Below are positions 5,793-28,196 of a stretch of 29,862 nt of DNA, one piece after another (the first letter of the stretch is position 1; each line of letters begins with the position of its first letter). A program made the translations under genes and the position numbers. The stretch comes from a virus. The stretch spans positions 1 to 29,862 of IMG/VR virus record IMGVR_UViG_3300031601_000021. The stretch is one strand, 5' to 3'. The notes beneath the pieces are model-generated. The model was not told where the DNA came from. It worked only from the letters and a program-made list of their open reading frames with translations, and ran no database searches.

Positions 5793-7019
5793 TTAACCGA
5801 ATTTTTGAAAAGCTGCTTTTACAATATCATCGGTTTCTTTATCTCCACTTTTAGCTACTGAATTAGAACCTTTACCTTGTGATGCTAAATCTTGTTCTTT
5901 TAATTGTTCTGCTAAAGTTTTAACTGCTTTTGTTTCTGCTACTTTAATTATTTTACTTAAGTCTGGAATATCATTAAATAGTCCTAGTGAGAAATAGTAA
6001 TTTAATTTAGCATCGAACTCTTGAGGATTTTCTGCTCTAGCTTCAAATACTTTATTAAACTGTTGTCCATTATCTTCTTTAGTAATTGTAGTCATTTGTT
6101 GGAATAATGATTTCTTTGTATTATCATCTAATGGCATACCTGGAACAATCTCTTTAAGACCTTTAATGTATTCTTCTGTACTTGATACCATCTTATCCAT
6201 ATGTGCTTTTTTTGCAATTTGATTTTGTTCATGTTGTTTTGCAATATTAGCTTCATAGTTATTAGTAAACTCAATTAGCTTATCTCTTCTTGCAGGAGAC
6301 TCTTTAGATAATTCTCCCATCTCTTTCTCTGTAGCTAATTTTTTCTGTATATCAACATCACTCCATTGTGTAGTTGCCCTATAATAGTCATATCCTACTC
6401 TCTCTTGCATCTTCTCATCCGCCTCTAAGGTTTCATTAGTCATAGTAGAATACTTTACCTTAGACATCTCTATATTAGTAATCTCATCTACTGTAAAACC
6501 ATTCTTAAACTTATCTACAAAATCTTTCTGCCTATCATTAAGTTGATTTCTATCTTCTTCAACACCCAATTTAATACCTTCTTGAATATATTCAGTAAAT
6601 CCATCTTTCATGAATTTAGCTCTTTCTTCATGAGTTTTTAATTTAAGGTATTCATCTTTTTTAAAAGAAGGAAGGATAGCTTCATTCACTAGAGTGGCAG
6701 CTAATGGATCTAAAGGAGAATCAATCTCTTTTGTCGAAGTATCTCCTTCCTTTTTTAAATCTTCTTTTTCTTTACCCTCTTTGGGTGCCACTGGTTTTTC
6801 TACTATATCATTTTTTTCAGGTACAAGAAATGTTCCATCATTTAACATCTTAATACCATCATCTGTTTTTGCTATTTCTTTTGTAGTCTTAATATCAGCC
6901 AATTCTTTTTCTAAGCTTTGACCATTCTCCTTTGTTTGAACTGTTTGTGTAGGAGTTCCAGTATCTAAAACGATACCATCACCTATCTCAAATAAGTCGT
7001 TATTGCTGCCGTCATTCAT
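5793..7019 (-). CDS. Scaffold-like / capsid assembly protein, 408 aa
   Basis: A highly charged 408-residue protein (rich in K, E, D, Q; almost no Cys or Trp) made of long predicted helices, lying between portal and major capsid genes. That composition and position are typical of phage scaffolding proteins, which fill the procapsid and leave or are cut during maturation. The first 110 residues are disordered and lysine/glutamate-rich (PKEGKEKEDLKKEGD); the middle (FTEYIQEGIKLGVEEDRNQL onward) is helical; the end (KETDDIVKAAFQKFG) could be the basic helix that contacts the coat protein. No protease motif was found. In tailed phages with virion RNA polymerase this position can also hold an internal cargo protein, which remains an alternative. 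Confidence 0.65.
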   Translation of the reverse strand: MNDGSNNDLFEIGDGIVLDTGTPTQTVQTKENGQSLEKELADIKTTKEIAKTDDGIKMLNDGTFLVPEKNDIVEKPVAPKEGKEKEDLKKEGDTSTKEIDSPLDPLAATLVNEAILPSFKKDEYLKLKTHEERAKFMKDGFTEYIQEGIKLGVEEDRNQLNDRQKDFVDKFKNGFTVDEITNIEMSKVKYSTMTNETLEADEKMQERVGYDYYRATTQWSDVDIQKKLATEKEMGELSKESPARRDKLIEFTNNYEANIAKQHEQNQIAKKAHMDKMVSSTEEYIKGLKEIVPGMPLDDNTKKSLFQQMTTITKEDNGQQFNKVFEARAENPQEFDAKLNYYFSLGLFNDIPDLSKIIKVAETKAVKTLAEQLKEQDLASQGKGSNSVAKSGDKETDDIVKAAFQKFG

Positions 7020-7045
7020 AATTATTGTTTTTTAATTATTAAAAG

Positions 7046-7075
7046 TAAAATTACTACATACATATTTATAACAAA
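7046..7075 (-). promoter_or_regulatory. Possible promoter before the scaffold-like gene
   Basis: On the minus strand TTTG (7072-7075) is followed after 18 bases by TAATTTTA (7046-7053), one mismatch from the Bacteroidota -7 element TAnnTTTG. It is 27 bases upstream of the scaffold-like start. The -33 part lies inside a 22-base sequence that is repeated exactly in the promoter region before the 17880 gene. Confidence 0.45.
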
Positions 7076-7109
7076 ATTTATTATAATATTTGCCACTATA
7101 AATATGTAT
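7058..7109. repeat. 13-base perfect inverted repeat at the end of the portal gene
   Basis: ATACATATTTATA at 7058-7070 is matched by its reverse complement TATAAATATGTAT at 7097-7109, separated by 26 bases. The right arm reaches the first base of the portal stop codon. The hairpin could stabilise the upstream message or mark a processing site; there is no T tract beside it that would make it a standard terminator. Confidence 0.6.
7067..7088. repeat. 22-base direct repeat, copy 1 (second copy 17930-17951)
   Basis: These 22 bases (TATAACAAAATTTATT then ATAATA) are identical to 17930-17951. In both places they lie upstream of a minus-strand gene start and supply the TTTG of a -33 element plus an AT-rich block upstream of it, like an UP element. 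A shared promoter module is the simplest reading. Confidence 0.7.
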
Positions 7110-7116
7110 TATTTGT
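7089..7116. repeat. 28-base direct repeat, copy 1 (second copy 9565-9592)
   Basis: The 28 bases beginning TTTGCCACTATAAATATG are identical to 9565-9592. This copy covers the stop codon of the portal gene; the other lies just past the stop of the terminase gene. Both are therefore at gene ends on the minus strand, just before the next gene's promoter-like region. Confidence 0.75.
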
Positions 7117-9490
7117 TATTTGTTTTTTTAACTTCTTTTTTGTCTTCTACCTCCTTTTTTGTTTTATTATTATCATTTGCTATATTAGTTTTAGTAGAAC
7201 TATCAAGATTAAACTTTTTCTCTTCTAATCCTCTATCTAAAGCATTCTCTGTTGTTTCATGAGCTTGTTTATCATCTTCTATTTGCAATTTTCCTTCTGT
7301 CTCTTTATCTGTAATAGTAGCATTTACATCTGTTTTATATATTTCTAAATCTATATCCATTTGCTTAAGTCCAATTTCTTTCTGATTATTCTCAGCATTA
7401 ATTTTTTCTACAGATTGTAATTGCTCTTGTTGTTGTTTAGCAATTCTCTCTGTCGCTTCTTCTTCTGCTATCTCAACCATCTTTCTCATATGAGAGATAC
7501 TGTCACTACCATATACATCTATTAGTGTAGAGAGCTTCATCTTATCTTGTGCAGCTAATTGTTGTGCATTCATTTCAATAGCTTGTATAAGTTTCTCTTC
7601 TTTCTTACCATCAGTAATAAATATACCCATATCTGAATCTGCTAATAAGTCAGGGTCAGTTCTTAAAATTACTTCAGCCAAATCATCATCTATATAAGAT
7701 AACAACTTAGGGTCTTTACCCCATGCATATTTAGCTGTCTCTAACAGATGTTCCATTACTCTTTTCTTAGTATGGTCATGAACTCCAAACCATTCTTCTG
7801 TAATAGTAGAAGATTGTTTAACACTTCTCTCAACACCTCTAGTAGTTTCTCTATTCTCTATCTGTCCTTCTCTTTGTCTTGATACTCCTGTTACACTATC
7901 TATCTCTTCATCTATACTTTTACATAGAGCATCCATATGTTGTATATAATTACCCATATCTGGATTCATCATTCTTCCATCAGTATTAAAGTTACCTGCT
8001 AATTTACCCGTAGCTGCTCCTTTGGTTCCTATATTAAAAGGGTCTACTATATGATAATTCATCATCTCAGTATAGTATAACCATTCATCCATAGTAAACA
8101 TCTTAGGTTTCTTAGATATATTGATTTCCATAATAGGACCTTTATATCTAGATATAGCATGTTGCATTAATCCCTTATATAGATTGTATTGGTATTTAAA
8201 CTGTTTTACCCTATCCATAAGACTTACTGCAACATTATCATTTGTTGCATAATATGTTCCTACAATACCTGGAGAACAAATACTAGGATTACCTAACTTA
8301 CGATATTGAACTTCTCTTGGCTTTCCTCTTAAATATATATTATGTCCTATCTTAATACTCTCCCACCATTCTTTTATCCATTTCCATTTTACTTTCTCTC
8401 CTGCATCTTTATCTACTTGATGTCTTTCATCAACTATTGTTTCTACCTCCTTACCTGTTTCTGGATCTAAAGAAGTAAGAAATCCTATTTTTCTCCAACT
8501 AACCCATCTTGCATATACTTCTCTTATCTCTCCATCTCTATTTATATATCCACCAAAAGAATTTATTAAATTACTATTATCATCTAATAATATAATACCA
8601 CTTTCTGAACCATTAAATTCAGCAGTAGGAACTGGTCCAACATAAGCTTTTGCTGAAGGAATAGCATATTTACTACTACCATTGGTTAAGCCCTCTTCTA
8701 GGTCACTAATCTGCTTACTTGTTAGTTCGTCATGATAATCATCTATTACATGTGCTAATGGTCTGTATGAAGCTTTAATGATAATAGAAGAGTCTTCTAT
8801 AAAATGACTCTCTCCTGAACGTAATGCTATAATATTTTTAGGATTTATTCTTCTTACTACCGGTTGTCCTGCTATAATATTAATATCATACATTTCTTCA
8901 GCTACAAGTAAAGCATCTTTAAACCCTTCATTAAACTGTCTCTTTAAATCATTCTCATGCCATAGATACTTAAGTATTCTAGTAGACATCTGCTCTCTCA
9001 TATCATGGTACTCATATGCAAAGTACTTCTTTTTCTTTTCTATCTTAGCTTGTAATTCTGCTTCTGAAAGATTAGGATTATTCATGCTCTCAGTTAATAT
9101 CTTAGTAATACTCTGCTTCATCAATCTTTCTTTATCACTAATAGCATCTTCATTTATTACTCTTACTCTCCAATTAAATTCCCTACCTAATTCTTCTCCT
9201 ATAAGAAGATTAAACTTTGGAACTTCAATAGGATAGTTTTGTAACTTTGCTGGCATTACAAATGACTTTAACCCCATAGGATTAAATACTTTTTCCATTT
9301 CTGCTGGATCAAATACTCCTGAATATAGATTGTAATTGTTTTCTTTATTAGCTAATGTAGTTCTTATTACACTACCTTCATCAGTAAGCATACCTTCTAA
9401 AGAATCCATACATTGCTCTACCCATTTTTTGTTTTTCTTAGAACGTGGAAGTTTCTGATTGGGAAATTGTGTAAACGAATTTATTGACAT
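7109..9490 (-). CDS. Portal protein (crAss-like type), 793 aa
   Basis: The 793-residue protein follows the large terminase directly and has the large size of portal proteins in crAss-like phages. Portals form the dodecameric ring through which DNA enters the head. Visible features are an N-terminal region with an LNYPIEVPKFNLLIGEELGRE-like segment, where portals of this kind contact the head, a helix-rich central part (RVKQFKYQYNLYKGLMQHAISRYKG), a VTGVSRQREGQ segment matching the loop typical of portals before the crown helices, and a C-terminal tail of about 100 residues that is almost wholly charged and glutamine-rich and probably coiled coil (EEATERIAKQQQEQLQSVEKINAENN). The start lies 20 bases after a -7-like promoter element. 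Alternative functions are unlikely in this position. Confidence 0.85.
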   Translation of the reverse strand: MSINSFTQFPNQKLPRSKKNKKWVEQCMDSLEGMLTDEGSVIRTTLANKENNYNLYSGVFDPAEMEKVFNPMGLKSFVMPAKLQNYPIEVPKFNLLIGEELGREFNWRVRVINEDAISDKERLMKQSITKILTESMNNPNLSEAELQAKIEKKKKYFAYEYHDMREQMSTRILKYLWHENDLKRQFNEGFKDALLVAEEMYDINIIAGQPVVRRINPKNIIALRSGESHFIEDSSIIIKASYRPLAHVIDDYHDELTSKQISDLEEGLTNGSSKYAIPSAKAYVGPVPTAEFNGSESGIILLDDNSNLINSFGGYINRDGEIREVYARWVSWRKIGFLTSLDPETGKEVETIVDERHQVDKDAGEKVKWKWIKEWWESIKIGHNIYLRGKPREVQYRKLGNPSICSPGIVGTYYATNDNVAVSLMDRVKQFKYQYNLYKGLMQHAISRYKGPIMEINISKKPKMFTMDEWLYYTEMMNYHIVDPFNIGTKGAATGKLAGNFNTDGRMMNPDMGNYIQHMDALCKSIDEEIDSVTGVSRQREGQIENRETTRGVERSVKQSSTITEEWFGVHDHTKKRVMEHLLETAKYAWGKDPKLLSYIDDDLAEVILRTDPDLLADSDMGIFITDGKKEEKLIQAIEMNAQQLAAQDKMKLSTLIDVYGSDSISHMRKMVEIAEEEATERIAKQQQEQLQSVEKINAENNQKEIGLKQMDIDLEIYKTDVNATITDKETEGKLQIEDDKQAHETTENALDRGLEEKKFNLDSSTKTNIANDNNKTKKEVEDKKEVKKTNNK

Positions 9491-12543: not shown

Positions 12544-12739
12544 GCTTATGCCAAAATTTATTCGGACATCTATTAGCAGGATGTAATACCTTTGTTTTAA
12601 CGGACACATTCTTTTTACAACTTGTATGTATACAATAGCCCCCATCGTTTAAAGGACAGGGTTTATTGCATATCTCCAACCTCTTTAGCTGCCACGCTTT
12701 CATATTACACTCTACTGATATTAATTTAGCTTTACCCAT
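12533..12739 (-). CDS. Small cysteine-rich, probably zinc-binding protein, 68 aa
   Basis: Sixty-eight basic residues with six cysteines (11, 24, 28, 36, 41, 58) and histidines at 38, 64 and 66. The pattern CNKPCPLNDGGYCIHTSC in the middle suggests one or two metal sites. The gene overlaps the winged-helix gene upstream by 8 bases and the HU-like gene downstream by 11 bases, so it belongs to the same translationally coupled set. No named family is recognised; binding of nucleic acid or protein is likely but unproven. Confidence 0.6.
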   Translation of the reverse strand: MGKAKLISVECNMKAWQLKRLEICNKPCPLNDGGYCIHTSCKKNVSVKTKVLHPANRCPNKFWHKHEE

Positions 12740-13133
12740 TGATTTGAAATTTAAAGTTTACATTATATTCATCATCTACTGGATTGATAATAAAAATAGC
12801 TGCCACCCTATTTTCTATTAAAATATTCTTATCTCTTAAACTCTTGATATTATTATTTAAGGAATGGACATTAATATTGATTCTCTCTCTAATGTATTCT
12901 TTATTCTCTGTAGATACAATATTATCTCCAGGTTTCTTAAATGTCAAATACAATAAAGCAGAAAGGACTTCTAGCTCTCTCTTATTAAGAGTAACTAGAA
13001 TCCAATCATCCCTTTCCTTATCTTTGTTATTCTGATAAGTCATATAGGCTTCAAAAAATGATTTACCTACTTTAAGGAATTCTAAAAAAATCTTATCCCT
13101 ATTGGTCCTAATAGGAATTACTCGATTAGACAT
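12732..13133 (-). CDS. Winged-helix (RepL-like) DNA-binding protein, 133 aa
   Basis: The middle of this 133-residue protein reads as a winged helix-turn-helix: LNKRELEVLSALLYLTF (helix 1), KEYIRERININVHSLNNNIKSLRDKNIL (helices 2 and 3, with a typical SLNNNIKSLRDK recognition helix) and ENRVAAIFIINP (wing). This layout resembles RepL-type and similar phage wHTH proteins. The N-terminus is basic (MSNRVIPIRTNRDK). Its ATG overlaps the stop of the GroES-like gene by one base (TAATG). A regulatory role, perhaps in switching to late transcription, is plausible given its place between early-type and head genes, but this is inference. Confidence 0.65.
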   Translation of the reverse strand: MSNRVIPIRTNRDKIFLEFLKVGKSFFEAYMTYQNNKDKERDDWILVTLNKRELEVLSALLYLTFKKPGDNIVSTENKEYIRERININVHSLNNNIKSLRDKNILIENRVAAIFIINPVDDEYNVNFKFQING

Positions 13134-19161: not shown

Positions 19162-19192
19162 CAAAGGTAAAAACAAATAGCACACTACCAAA
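19162..19192 (-). promoter_or_regulatory. Strong leftward Bacteroidota-type promoter
   Basis: On the minus strand TTTG (19189-19192), 19 bases, then TACCTTTG (19162-19169): an exact match to the consensus TTTG-N19-21-TAnnTTTG. It faces the 93-residue gene with a leader of about 35 bases. The same -7 octamer, TACCTTTG, is used on the plus strand at 20134-20141. Confidence 0.8.
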
Positions 19193-19331
19193 AAAATCCT
19201 GGAAAATTTTTTATACCCTAATTCAAATATTCCCAATATCCCTGTAAAAATAAACTCATAGTAATATATTATTCCTTATAGTATATAAGCATATATAGTA
19301 ACATGACCTCAATCAATGACCCGGGTTAACT

Positions 19332-19363
19332 TTTGGCTGGGGAGCTACGGGTGCCTAGTTGTA
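19332..19363 (+). promoter_or_regulatory. Possible rightward promoter in a GC-rich patch
   Basis: TTTG (19332-19335) is followed after 20 bases by TAGTTGTA (19356-19363), six of eight positions being defined and four of them matching TAnnTTTG. The spacer is unusually GC-rich (GGCTGGGGAGCTACGGGTGC) and is preceded by the palindrome ACCCGGGT at 19319-19326. It is 40 bases upstream of the 189-residue gene. Confidence 0.4.
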
Positions 19364-20026: not shown

Positions 20027-20126
20027 TGAGTGTTAATCTTTAAAAAGGCTGGATACAATATATATCATAAATCAAAAAAGAGTTTTATACTATATATATA
20101 TGTATCATTTTTATTAATTAGTTTAT

Positions 20127-20146
20127 TTGTCCTTACCTTTGGACAA
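20127..20146 (+). promoter_or_regulatory. Inverted repeat overlapping the -7 element of the 158-residue gene
   Basis: TTGTCC (20127-20132) and GGACAA (20141-20146) form an inverted repeat with an 8-base spacer. The -7 element TACCTTTG (20134-20141) sits exactly inside it, 33 bases before the ATG at 20174. The -33 position has only TTTTTA-like bases, so the promoter may need activation or be weak. A protein bound to the two half-sites would block the promoter. The half-site is the core of the repeats found inside and after the gene. Confidence 0.6.
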
Positions 20147-20173
20147 TGTTTAACACTTTAATATAATAATAAC

Positions 20174-20650
20174 ATGAATGCAGTAATCGAATTCTTAAAA
20201 GAGAATGAACATATCTCAGTTAAAAAGCTCGAAACAGATCTTAATATTCCATTTAGAACAATTAGACTAGATGGTAGTCGTAGTATTCCTGATAAATACC
20301 TAGGACAAATTGAAGATTACCTTAGGACAAATCATTCGTATACTCCCGACACTGTATGTCTAAGACAAAACGAGGACAATATAGATAAGCCTAGGACAAA
20401 TGAAAGAATAGTAAAGATGTACAACGTAGATAGAATACCTTCTTTTAATGATAATATTTATAGATTCCAAGACAAAAACAATGGACTCTGGAGAAGAGTG
20501 GAAGCATGGGGATACACTACAGACAAGAAAACTAAGCTATCTGTACTTAAGGATACATACGAACCACAAACAGATGAAATACTATCTGATGACATAGGAG
20601 AGTTCTATATCGCTAATAATGGATATAAAATATATTTGTCCTACAACTAA
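20174..20650 (+). CDS. HTH-like protein coded over an array of its probable binding sites, 158 aa
   Basis: Residues 1-50 read as a helix-turn-helix: NAVIEFLKENEHISVKKLETDLNIPFRTIRLDG, where SVKKLETDLNI and PFRTIRL would be the two helices of the DNA-binding unit, followed by KYLGQIEDYLRTN. A less ordered linker (residues 55-85) is followed by a beta-rich domain (NDNIYRFQDKNNGLWRRVEAWGY...GYKIYLSYN). I know no named family. The gene carries TAGGACAAAT-type motifs in its coding sequence, in two reading frames, and an inverted version over its promoter, which suggests autoregulation, or an initiator-type protein with its own iterons. The binding of this protein to those sites is inference. Confidence 0.65.
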   Translation: MNAVIEFLKENEHISVKKLETDLNIPFRTIRLDGSRSIPDKYLGQIEDYLRTNHSYTPDTVCLRQNEDNIDKPRTNERIVKMYNVDRIPSFNDNIYRFQDKNNGLWRRVEAWGYTTDKKTKLSVLKDTYEPQTDEILSDDIGEFYIANNGYKIYLSYN

Positions 20651-20699
20651 TATATATTTGTCCTAGGCTAGTGAAATGTCCTAGCTACTTAGGACAAAT
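20301..20699. repeat. TAGGACAAAT / ATTTGTCCTA array, iteron-like
   Basis: Exact copies of TAGGACAAAT occur at 20301-20310, 20323-20332, 20392-20401 and 20690-20699, and of its reverse complement ATTTGTCCTA at 20634-20643 and 20656-20665. Weaker copies lie at 20361 (TAAGACAAAA), 20373 (AGGACAAT) and 20674 (AAATGTCCTA). Two neighbouring pairs are spaced by exactly 22 bases, about two helical turns. The copies at 20656-20665 and 20690-20699 can also pair to form a hairpin. Inside the gene the motif is read as LGQI in one frame and as LRTN and PRTN in another, so it is the DNA and not the peptide that is conserved. Confidence 0.75.
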
Positions 20700-20700
20700 A

Positions 20701-20762
20701 AGGCTTGCTTTGGTAAGTTCTCCGAGGGAAAGGAGAAGACAGTTCGAACCTGTCCATAGCCT
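20701..20762 (+). ncRNA. tRNA-like 62-base cloverleaf without an anticodon
   Basis: A four-arm fold can be drawn by eye: AGGCT (20701-20705) with AGCCT (20758-20762) as a short acceptor stem; CTT-TGGT-AAG as a D-like arm holding the TGGTA of D loops; TTCTCC with GGAGAA around the eight-base loop GAGGGAAA in the anticodon-arm position; and GACAG-TTCGAAC-CTGTC, a perfect T arm. It is about ten bases shorter than a tRNA, has no T before the anticodon position and no variable loop, so it is unlikely to decode. It starts one base after the last TAGGACAAAT copy. It may be a degenerate tRNA, a tRNA mimic or an attachment-site remnant. Confidence 0.5.
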
Positions 20763-20817
20763 CTATAAACCCCAACTACAACGCATGTAGAGCACACACA
20801 AACACTTCTACAACATA

Positions 20818-20943
20818 ATGCTTGGTATTATTCTTACTACTACTATAGACTATGTATTTAGTATATTAGTATTATTAATAAGATGTTTTGTATTATATCA
20901 CTTATATGTTATTCAGCTATGTTTAATGGTAATTAGTAAATAA
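20818..20943 (+). CDS. Possible 41-aa hydrophobic membrane peptide
   Basis: The frame from ATG at 20818 codes MLGIILTTTIDYVFSILVLLIRC and then FVLYHLYVIQLCLMVISK, two hydrophobic stretches that could each span a membrane. It would resemble the small membrane peptides of phage early regions or type I toxins. The leader (TTCTACAACATA) is acceptable but there is no clear ribosome-binding site, and in DNA this AT-rich hydrophobic frames of this length arise by chance. I list it as possible only. Confidence 0.3.
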   Translation: MLGIILTTTIDYVFSILVLLIRCFVLYHLYVIQLCLMVISK

Positions 20944-20970
20944 GTATAATATCAGCTAAATTGTGTTGAT

Positions 20971-21003
20971 ATTGTTGTATTATGTATAAAATGTATAGTT
21001 TTG
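20971..21003 (+). promoter_or_regulatory. Probable rightward promoter before the 144-residue gene
   Basis: TAGTTTTG (20996-21003) matches TAnnTTTG fully; the -33 position 21 bases upstream reads ATTG (20971-20974), three of four bases. It leaves a leader of about 45-50 bases to the ATG at 21059 and could drive the whole small-gene arm. Confidence 0.5.
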
Positions 21004-21058
21004 TGCATATAGGTTTAAATATGAATAATAATTAGTATTAACTAATATATATAATGTT

Positions 21059-21493
21059 ATGAAATTAAGGAAAGAAATATCATTTGAACAATTTGAAAGT
21101 GTAGTCAATTATATTAATGAAGAAGAAGTGGCTACAGATTTAAATGAAGGAGAATTAAGACAAGAATGGGGTATCTATAGAAATGATGTAGAGAACGAAG
21201 ATATTGAAGTATTACCTAAGATATCAAAAGATTTAATTAATACATTAAGTGAATCAGGTATCTTATTGAATAAAGACTATTCTACCATAACATTAGAATG
21301 GTTTAAAGCATGGTTTAGGGAAGAATATAATATAGATATTAATGTCTATGCTTATATGCATAAAAAATGTGTGTTATATAAAATTCAAGTTATAAATGGT
21401 ATTTTACACCAAATTGAATTAGGATTTACTTCTAAGTATAATAAAGGACTAGAAGATGCATTAATATATGCTTGTAAACTAATAAAGAAATAG
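21059..21493 (+). CDS. Hypothetical phage protein, 144 aa
   Basis: A soluble, helical, acidic protein. It starts MKLRKEISFEQFESVVNYINEEE; the middle (TITLEWFKAWFREEYNIDINVYAYMHKKCVLYKIQVI) is aromatic; the end GFTSKYNKGLEDALIYACKLIKK matches the f.ty.eAle.al..alkli pattern seen at the end of many small phage proteins of unknown function. It has a TTATG start context like neighbouring genes and ends in TAG. It opens the operon behind the promoter at 20971-21003. Confidence 0.65.
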   Translation: MKLRKEISFEQFESVVNYINEEEVATDLNEGELRQEWGIYRNDVENEDIEVLPKISKDLINTLSESGILLNKDYSTITLEWFKAWFREEYNIDINVYAYMHKKCVLYKIQVINGILHQIELGFTSKYNKGLEDALIYACKLIKK

Positions 21494-23310: not shown

Positions 23311-23562
23311 ATGGAACTAAAAAAAGTAATTATAGAAATAGAACACGATGTCGAGAAAATGACAGATGAAAAACTATTAGCTGGTATTAAATGATATCTT
23401 AAAAATGTTAAAGGCAAGGTAACAGTAAATCTTCAATCCTTACCCAAAGAGGTAGAGAAGGAAGAAAATTGTTCTAATTGTGATTTAAACGATATTTGCA
23501 CTTCTAAAGATAATTGGTGTGATTCATGGATTCCTATTGAACCCAAAGAAGTAAAAGAGTAA
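23311..23562 (+). pseudogene. Short gene interrupted by an in-frame TGA
   Basis: From ATG 23311 the frame reads MELKKVIIEIEHDVEKMTDE then KLLAGIK, stops at TGA (23392-23394), and is open again without any start codon for 55 codons: YLKNVKGKVTVNLQSLPKEV, then ENCSNCDLNDICTSKDNWCDSW, to TAA at 23560-23562. The second half has a coherent sequence with a CxxC and further cysteines, normal codon use for this DNA and no ATG, GTG or TTG in frame, so it seems to be one 83-codon gene with a stop in place of Trp (TGG to TGA). It may be a nonsense mutation, a read-through site, or a sequence error. The zinc-like cysteine set resembles other small Cys proteins here. Confidence 0.55.
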
Positions 23563-23604: not shown

Positions 23605-23718
23605 TTAGCTAATGTTCCGCAATAAAGCGAGACCTCTAGCTAAAGTTTAGTTCTGACATAACAATAATAACAAATGCTAGAACATCATAAAAAGACATGC
23701 CAATAGGTGTGTCTTTTT
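23605..23718 (+). ncRNA. Possible structured small RNA ending in a terminator
   Basis: The 234 bases between 23562 and 23797 hold no gene but several pairing elements: TTAGCT (23605-23610) with AGCTAA (23638-23643), enclosing CGC/GCG (23618-23620 and 23627-23629), and GTTCT (23650-23654) with AGAAC (23679-23683), followed by a good terminator. This is the layout of a small RNA or of a regulated leader. No known RNA family is recognised and no promoter was identified. Confidence 0.35.
23689..23718 (+). terminator. Strong rho-independent terminator
   Basis: AAAAAGACATGCC (23689-23701) pairs with GGTGTGTCTTTTT (23706-23718) around the loop AATA, with two G-T pairs, and the stem runs into a T tract. 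It ends the transcript that begins near 21000. With the A/T flanks it could also work leftward, but all nearby genes point right. Confidence 0.85.
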
Positions 23719-23761
23719 TATATTTATGGTACAAGAGTAAGTTCGATTCTTACTAATATAA
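23718..23761 (+). ncRNA. Second tRNA-like element (minihelix with T arm), 44 bases
   Basis: TTATATT (23718-23724) pairs with AATATAA (23755-23761) like an acceptor stem. Between them lie TATGGTACAAG, with a TGGTA as in D loops, and a T arm AGTAAG-TTCGATT-CTTACT with a typical seven-base TTCGATT loop. No anticodon arm is present. It begins at the end of the terminator's T tract. It may be a degraded tRNA or a tRNA mimic; it resembles the element at 20701-20762 in having acceptor, TGGTA and T arm. Confidence 0.4.
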
Positions 23762-24526: not shown

Positions 24527-24689
24527 TGGAACAGAGGAAGTCTTTGATGATATAGAGAAAGCATTAGATTGGGTACATGCAAATGGACTTTATAATAATG
24601 CTTCTCTTATTGTTGTTGTAAATACAGAAGAAGAAGAGAAGATAGTTAAAGATATTTATTCACGAGTTAAAATAGACTATAATGAATAA
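24504..24689 (+). CDS. Small acidic hypothetical protein, 61 aa
   Basis: A 61-residue acidic protein (MAPELRFNGTEEVFDDIEKALDWVHANGLYNNASLIVVVNTEEEEK) that looks like a small alpha/beta fold with an early helix and a central strand. Its start lies inside the previous gene (23-base overlap) and its end overlaps the DnaA-like gene by eight bases (ATGAATAA), the same overlap sequence found at 22485-22492. Confidence 0.55.
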   Translation: MAPELRFNGTEEVFDDIEKALDWVHANGLYNNASLIVVVNTEEEEKIVKDIYSRVKIDYNE

Positions 24690-25137
24690 TATAAGATTAC
24701 GTGTACGTGTCTTTTGTTTAGAACATAGTATCAATAGTCTTGTAATGTCTGCAAAAGATAAGAAATATTATTATGATGAAGTAAATGATTATACTTATAA
24801 GTTCGGAGATAGAGAATTAAGAAGAACTAAGTATGAAGATGAATTACTTTCTCCTAATAAAATAAGATATACTATATGTAGATACTTTCAGATATCAGTT
24901 AAGTATGTCCAGGTTAAAGATAGGTCAAACAATGTTAAATATCCAAGACAACTTGTACACTACTTTCTAAAGAAACATACTAAGCTATCATTATTAGAGA
25001 TTGCTCATATGACAGGACTAGAATCTCATGCTACAGTACTTAATAGCATTAAAGTAATTAAAAGAGGTATTAAGGATGGTGGTGGTGTTAGAGAAGATGT
25101 AAGAAATTTAGAATTATTAATTAATAATAGAAAATAA
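24682..25137 (+). CDS. Free-standing DnaA domain IV-like DNA-binding protein, 151 aa
   Basis: Residues 60-130 fit the C-terminal DNA-binding domain of DnaA: FQISVKYVQVKDRSNNVKYPRQLVHYFLKKHTKLSLLEIAHMTGLESHATVLNS. The PRQ....f at 88-94, the LSL.eIA helix at 102-108 and SHATV at 115-119, which stands where DnaA has DHTTV or DHSTV, are the DnaA-box contacting signature. No ATPase domain is present. The first 60 residues are a charged, aromatic region. Such proteins could mark the phage origin, compete with host DnaA or act as transcription regulators. The overlap with neighbours (8 bases and 1 base) shows it is part of the early operon. Confidence 0.75.
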   Translation: MNNIRLRVRVFCLEHSINSLVMSAKDKKYYYDEVNDYTYKFGDRELRRTKYEDELLSPNKIRYTICRYFQISVKYVQVKDRSNNVKYPRQLVHYFLKKHTKLSLLEIAHMTGLESHATVLNSIKVIKRGIKDGGGVREDVRNLELLINNRK

Positions 25138-27248: not shown

Positions 27249-28196
27249 ATGGCTAAGAAAATTAAAGGATATAAAATCATGAATTCCGATATGACTTGTA
27301 GGAATTTTAAATTTGAAATAGGTAAAACCTATACACATAAAGGTAATATAAGTTTATGTAATTTAGGATTTCATTTTTGTATAAAACCTGTTAATTGTTT
27401 TAATTACTATAATTTTGATAATAAAAATGTAGTATGTGAGATTGAAACATTAACAACTTCTAAAGTAATTCATGGAGATGATAAAAGTGTTACTGATAAA
27501 ATAAGAATATTAAAAATTATTAAATGGTCTAATGTATTAAATTTAGTTAATATAGGGGATTTCAATACTGGATACAGTAACTCTGGAGACAGTAACTCTG
27601 GAAACAGTAACTCTGGAGACTGGAACTCTGGAGACAGTAACTCTGGAGACTGGAACTCTGGATACAGAAACTCTGGAAACAGGAACTCTGGAGACTGGAA
27701 CTCTGGATACAGAAACTCTGGAAACAGTAACTCTGGAGACAGGAACTCTGGATACAGTAACTCTGGAAACAGTAACTCTGGAGACAGTAACTCTGGAGAC
27801 AGTAACTCTGGATACAGTAACTCTGGATACAGTAACTCTGGAGACTGGAACTCTGGAGACAGGAACTCTGGATTTTTCAATTCTATTACTCCTATTGATA
27901 TAATTATATTTAATAAATCATGTAAAAAAGAAAAATGGGATAATGCTATTAAACCTAACTTTATATATAATATTAATATAAATCAATGGATATCTTTTTA
28001 TAATATGAATAATAAAGAAAAGAAAGAAAAACCTAATGCTTATGTTTGTAATGGATATTTAAAAACTATTACATATAAAAAAGCATGGAAATTAGCATTT
28101 ATTAAAGCTGATAAAAATGATATTAAACTTTTAAAAGCTTTACCTAATTTTAACAAAAAAGTATTTGAAGAAATAACAGGAATTAAAATTAAATAA
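27249..28196 (+). CDS. DUF7666-like protein with 22 pentapeptide repeats, 315 aa
   Basis: Residues 1-100 match the DUF7666 type common in phages: KGYKIMNSDMTCRNFKFEIGKTYTHKGNISLCNLGFHFCIKPVNCFNYY, then VCEIETLTTSKVIHGDDKSVTDKIRI. From about residue 103 to 212 come 22 five-residue units, mostly (G)-D/N/Y-S/W/R-N-S, written GDSNSGNSNSGDWNSG, which should form a right-handed quadrilateral beta helix as in other pentapeptide repeat proteins. The C-terminal 100 residues are a lysine-rich domain (KAWKLAFIKADKNDIKLLKALPNF). The DNA of the repeats is almost perfectly regular. AAAGGAG lies upstream of the start. Function unknown. Confidence 0.75.
   Translation: MAKKIKGYKIMNSDMTCRNFKFEIGKTYTHKGNISLCNLGFHFCIKPVNCFNYYNFDNKNVVCEIETLTTSKVIHGDDKSVTDKIRILKIIKWSNVLNLVNIGDFNTGYSNSGDSNSGNSNSGDWNSGDSNSGDWNSGYRNSGNRNSGDWNSGYRNSGNSNSGDRNSGYSNSGNSNSGDSNSGDSNSGYSNSGYSNSGDWNSGDRNSGFFNSITPIDIIIFNKSCKKEKWDNAIKPNFIYNININQWISFYNMNNKEKKEKPNAYVCNGYLKTITYKKAWKLAFIKADKNDIKLLKALPNFNKKVFEEITGIKIK
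27555..27884 (+). repeat. 15-base tandem repeats coding pentapeptides, 22 units
   Basis: Twenty-two near-identical 15-base units of the form GGA-(G/A/T)AC-(AGT/TGG/AGG/AGA)-AACTCT. Only the second and third codons vary: D, N or Y (a single first-base change) and S, W or R. The other three codons are identical at the base level in nearly all units, which points to recent expansion or gene conversion. Confidence 0.9.

Follow-up and report, generated by a model that had tools for sequence, protein, structure and literature searches.

Bacteriophage lambda carries its replication origin inside gene O, where four 19-bp iterons are found (PMC3985674), and in phage P1 the RepA protein binds iterons that are tightly linked to repA (PMC7157519). 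Among crAss-like phages, a phage-plasmid life with repL has been reported for the prototypic crAssphage (PMC11652158). Here we describe a locus of comparable layout in another crAss-like phage, in which about 11 copies of a short motif are confined to roughly 575 bp around a single gene, most of them away from its promoter. The window that we analyzed is an entire IMG/VR virus record of 29,862 bases with open ends, and is thus a fragment of its phage genome. The terminase, portal and major head protein encoded in it matched crAss-like PHROG families, and the best terminase matches among named phages (tblastn) were to Suoliviridae, at approximately 40% identity. These three crAss-like genes, together with divergent gene blocks that run leftward to the left of 19.2 kb and rightward to the right of 19.4 kb, place the fragment in the Crassvirales. 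Elsewhere in the window, a small open reading frame at 23311–23562 has one in-frame TGA and continues to read sensibly for 55 more codons; because the other genes end normally, we attribute this TGA to local readthrough, mutation or a sequencing error.

A recount of the motif across the record confirmed the six exact copies of TAGGACAAAT and the two 22-base pairs described in the initial annotation. Rather than being spread evenly over the genome, all six copies fall at one locus, between 20301 and 20699, with none elsewhere in the 29.9-kb record. The core GGACAA occurs nine times in 20127–20697 (starting at 20127−, 20141+, 20303+, 20325+, 20374+, 20394+, 20636−, 20658− and 20692+), and seven of the eight copies of GGACAAAT in the window lie, with every exact copy of TAGGACAAAT, within 575 bp. 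We lettered the sites A to K from left to right, A and B being at the promoter. Inside the gene, five sites point in one direction on the plus strand with core spacings of 22, 38, 11 and 20: C (20301–20310), D (20323–20332) and G (20392–20401) are exact copies, E (20361–20370) is the near copy TAAGACAAAA with two mismatches, and F (20374–20379) is a GGACAA core. At the 3′ end of the gene, sites H (20634–20643, an exact copy overlapping the last codons), I (20656–20665, exact) and J (20674–20683, the near copy TAGGACATTT with two mismatches) point the opposite way on the minus strand with spacings of 22 and 18, and the exact copy K (20690–20699, plus strand) faces them. The spacing within the pairs C–D and H–I is exactly 22 in each case, near two helical turns. 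A direct-repeat array near a gene, as in iteron replicons, is therefore present, though its spacing is only partly uniform. J and K constitute a second inverted pair, TGTCC-N10-GGACA, downstream of the gene, and in the transcript I and K form a hairpin (20655–20700, plus strand).

The repeat cluster is genuine and cannot be put down to chance. Compared with the six exact copies observed, 300 dinucleotide-preserving shuffles of the window gave a mean of 0.15 copies of TAGGACAAAT and a maximum of 2, and the nine GGACAA cores observed in 20101–20720 compare with a mean of 0.25 and a maximum of 3 among 2,000 local shuffles. The only other equally strong cluster in the window is a coding repeat, in the pentapeptide-repeat gene at 27.5 kb. 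This gene (27249–28196) encodes a DUF7666 protein whose pentapeptide repeats are built on an NSGD-type unit (PF01469), and its DNA repeat is the strongest of the window. Within the coding sequence at the array, the reading frame of the motif varies, yielding LGQI at site C and LRTN and PRTN at sites D and G, from which it had been argued that the DNA itself is under constraint. This argument was borne out by synonymous-codon shuffling that preserved the protein and its codon counts, as none of 5,000 shuffles reached the observed four copies (mean 0.49). Because synonymous shuffles never gave four copies, the array sequence is apparently kept as DNA (or RNA) and not for the protein, and the part of the array within the coding sequence appears to be under selection at the DNA level.

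At the promoter of the gene, sites A and B form the inverted repeat TTGTCC-N8-GGACAA (20127–20146), a putative operator. With its arms at 20127–20132 (TTGTCC) and 20141–20146 (GGACAA), the repeat overlaps TACCTTTG (20134–20141, plus strand), the Bacteroidota-type −7 box of the gene, so that an inverted repeat of the core sits on the gene’s own promoter as in iteron replicons. The inverted repeat over the −7 element stands as initially described. The −33 box is poor by the Bacteroidota pattern, with no good TTTG. An 18-base element, TATTTGTnnTTACCTTTG, is common to this promoter and to a leftward promoter (19162–19179, minus strand) that has TTTG at 19 bases and carries neither GGACAA arm: there the first arm lacks its CC and the second is absent altogether. 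The GGACAA arms are for this reason an addition specific to the 158-residue gene, and the motif belongs to that gene and not to promoters generally, although the ATTTGT part of the first arm may be promoter sequence. We found no GGACAA or TAGGACAAAT sites at any other promoter of the 30-kb fragment.

The gene itself (20174–20650, plus strand) encodes a 158-residue orphan protein with a putative N-terminal helix-turn-helix and carries four exact motif copies in its sequence. We found no credible relatives of the protein in IMG/VR, 50,697 phage records or 72,556 plasmids, no match in PHROGs, Pfam or PDB sequences, no match to any recognized initiator family, and no relative in the crAss-like loci searched. 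A search of 395 genomes from the phylum of a Bacteroidetes MAG gave four marginal matches, rejected as partial, low-identity hits that looked like chance. The initial helix-turn-helix label corresponds to sub-threshold HTH_DeoR and HTH_11 matches in the first 33 residues (PF08220, E 0.067, under the cut-off), and the protein may not be a helix-turn-helix protein at all. A single-sequence structure model was poor (pLDDT 40) and was set aside. Of the 49 coding sequences examined, none has a lower sense-strand GC skew than this gene (0.05; z −2.5 relative to a mean of 0.27 and standard deviation of 0.087 for coding sequences of at least 300 nt), and its codon fit is the fourth lowest of 38. This combination of low GC skew and low codon fit weakly suggests that the gene is a newcomer to the phage, perhaps an acquired cassette.

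The initial annotation had also called for GC skew around the region. A cumulative G−C minimum is indeed nearby, at the divergent-transcription switch (19322), 0.8–1.4 kb from the array, but it is confounded as an origin signal because all genes change strand there. The position of the array near this minimum is suggestive, but the minimum is not at the array and is confounded with gene direction. In crAss001 the skew likewise inverts where two gene blocks meet; its authors link this to transcription and/or replication, and make the same reservation on skew at a block junction (PMC6235969). The switch itself coincides exactly with a G+C-rich stretch (19300–19360) containing GACCCGGGTTAAC and GGCTGGGGAGCTACGGGTGCC, and the 300 bases at 20801–21100 are 78–82% AT. 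No DnaA box with at most one mismatch was found near the array, and the count of such boxes is at chance level. At 24682–25137, 4 kb from the array, a small protein is encoded that has the C-terminal, DNA-binding domain of DnaA (PF08299, E 6e-16) but not the ATPase part, and is possibly a second replication or regulatory factor. A reverse-strand gene at 12732–13133 gave a weak Phage_rep_O match (PF04492, E 0.017, under the cut-off), and by eye, proteins resembling its product occupy the same place in records L031 and L036. The record showed no match to Rep_3 (PF01051) at E ≤ 10 and none to RepL (PF05732), nor did the window yield a Par gene or any gene for lysogeny.

Next to the array lies a tRNA-like element (20701–20762, plus strand). 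It has a 5-bp acceptor, a TGGT mini D arm, a 6-bp hairpin in the place of a normal anticodon arm, and a perfect, canonical T arm at 20738–20754 (GACAG TTCGAAC CTGTC), after which comes an acceptor-like strand paired to 20701–20705. The element noted initially thus has a real T arm but is not a tRNA, being called by neither ARAGORN nor Rfam (RF00005). A second tRNA-like element (23718–23761), directly preceded by a strong hairpin, has a perfect T arm at 23737–23753, a 7-bp acceptor-like pairing, TGGTA and no anticodon arm. Since two perfect T arms were observed in the window versus 0.03 expected, these elements are tRNA remnants or mimics and not chance. In several related phages, the annotation places tRNA or tmRNA genes close to the divergent switch. 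In the related contig L031, Rfam identifies a true tRNA beside the switch (9210–9301, 55 bits) with an oversized anticodon arm, and the same tRNA lies beside the switch in the related contig L026 (5702–5793, reverse); ARAGORN reads it as Ile TAT with a 17-nt intron. We also noted in L031 a stretch of about 3 kb with few open reading frames between the divergent gene blocks (6500–9430), containing several hairpins and tRNA-like pieces. Because related phages carry tRNA or tmRNA genes at this place, the tRNA-like element may be an ordinary occupant of the region, separate from the array.

For the comparison with related phages that had been proposed, we searched 23 other crAss-like records (approximately 700 kb, 15 of them with a divergent switch) for 600-bp stretches holding at least five occurrences of one 9-mer or four of one 10-mer, a threshold that would miss degenerate iterons, and found no comparable array. 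By this comparison the array is unique to the phage. In the searches with the protein, no relative was found to keep the gene. As none of the 23 records has such a cluster, the array is not a common crAss-like origin; it is either lineage-specific or diverged beyond recognition in other crAss-like phages. Searching viral and cellular contigs for the iteron pair returned 29 loci, none of them related to the phage where inspected. Among these, for example, L042 is a coding repeat for zinc-ribbon motifs, and L044 and L052 are tandem repeats.

Our leading interpretation, held tentatively and with less than even confidence, is that the locus is a self-contained, autoregulated iteron-type cassette acting in phage replication or copy control. 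From its layout we infer binding by the 158-residue protein, repression and a role in replication. The protein would bind the TAGGACAAAT sites. Two molecules paired on the inverted repeat (20127–20146) would block the −7 box and shut off the gene. Further copies, bound to direct-repeat sites C–G in the gene and H–K after it, would assemble into an extended nucleoprotein complex by which phage replication is started or limited near the divergent origin region, in the manner of lambda O and P1 RepA. The iteron-plasmid design seen in the initial annotation is thus recovered in the inverted copy on the promoter and the direct copies in and after the gene, but not in a Rep family, a DnaA box or a Par gene. 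Similarly, the layout fits the proposed origin or copy control of a phage-plasmid while the window has no recognized Rep or lysogeny gene, and nothing in our analysis supports the lysis control suggested alongside. A close rival, which we consider nearly as likely, is plain multi-operator autoregulation, in which the protein regulates its own level, and perhaps that of its neighbors, by cooperative binding or by looping that would join promoter, intragenic and downstream sites, with no role in replication. The inverted repeat directly on the −7 box and the second inverted pair J–K are consistent with such a regulator, as is the account of the crAss001 authors, who put proteins of DNA binding and transcription regulation at the proximal end of each of the two gene blocks (PMC6235969). 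However, the lack of sites at other promoters in 30 kb leaves no visible target but the gene itself, and the intragenic direct-repeat sites exceed what autorepression needs. For these two reasons we place the replication reading slightly ahead, with replication or copy control as the most likely second function of the array.

The remaining explanations change the binder or the purpose of the sites. A protein encoded elsewhere, either a host factor or the product of a gene outside the fragment, could bind the array, leaving the 158-residue gene as a bystander that contains the sites. The weakly indicated DNA-binding domain and the open-ended record, with most of the genome unseen, would allow for this, yet the sites are centered on the gene, cover its promoter, and have shaped the choice of its codons, which makes a foreign binder unlikely. 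In plasmid centromeres such as ParR–parC and TubR–tubC, direct repeats are combined with a small DNA-binding protein that represses its own gene. This anatomy, like the array statistics, would agree with a parC/parS-like array of iterons and an autoregulating adaptor. As no Par ATPase or TubZ-like protein was matched among the window genes scanned against Pfam, we consider a centromere very improbable. In control at the RNA level, sense copies in the coding region (C, D and G) would base-pair with the antisense ones of the 3′ end (H and I), as they can over ten bases, while the I–K hairpin and the tRNA-like element, which together fold better than shuffles (z −2.9), would act in the transcript. 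Such control is equally improbable given that most intragenic copies are direct repeats unable to pair with each other and that one arm pair falls at the expected start of transcription or upstream of it. Finally, a T arm and acceptor 3′ half beside short repeats have the look of an attachment site (attP), in which arm-type integrase sites adjoin a tRNA gene at its 3′ end. No host counterpart was found, however, in 395 genomes from the phylum of a Bacteroidetes MAG, with neither a match to the 25-base tRNA-like 3′ end at up to three mismatches nor an exact match to the 17-base T arm, and none of the window genes scanned matched an integrase; we therefore regard this as the least probable of the explanations.

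A bolder form of the replication reading, which we consider doubtful though worth stating, is that the protein represents a new family of initiators, unrelated to any known Rep, and that the locus is a replicon under iteron control which was acquired horizontally and has its origin within the initiator gene. If true, it would bring plasmid-type copy control to a crAss-like phage, which bears on how these phages begin replication and persist without lysing their hosts. To our knowledge, few relatives of the prototypic crAssphage carry repL, and a compact cassette that brings its binding sites along would be a directly testable candidate for a second, repL-independent route. An orphan protein of this small size, with a putative target defined to 10 bp, is also easy to assay.

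Compared with the known systems, RepL of crAss-like and P1-like phage-plasmids is a phage-plasmid initiator of a family (PF05732) that is without a match in the record. With the Rep_3 iteron plasmids (pSC101, R6K and F), the locus shares direct repeats at about two helical turns and an inverted version on the promoter. It differs from them in having a protein of only 158 residues and a conserved core of about 10 bp, and an initiator with two winged helices, as in the Rep_3 class, is not recognized here, with no PF01051 match in the record and no Pfam match for the protein. The iterons of P1 are 19 bp long and do not lie inside repA. Relative to the P1 replicon, the 158-residue protein has no RepA or Rep_3 homology, and neither ParAB nor a DnaA-box cluster was found in the window; the likeness consists of repeats near the promoter with more after the gene, a promoter copy placed for autorepression, and a phage-plasmid context that is plausible for crAss-like phages. 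We know of no operator on the promoter of lambda gene O comparable to the one described here, and the 158-residue protein has no detectable relation to O. Like the lambda iterons, however, the repeats lie within the sequence that encodes their putative binding protein, between its putative N-terminal DNA-binding part and the rest.
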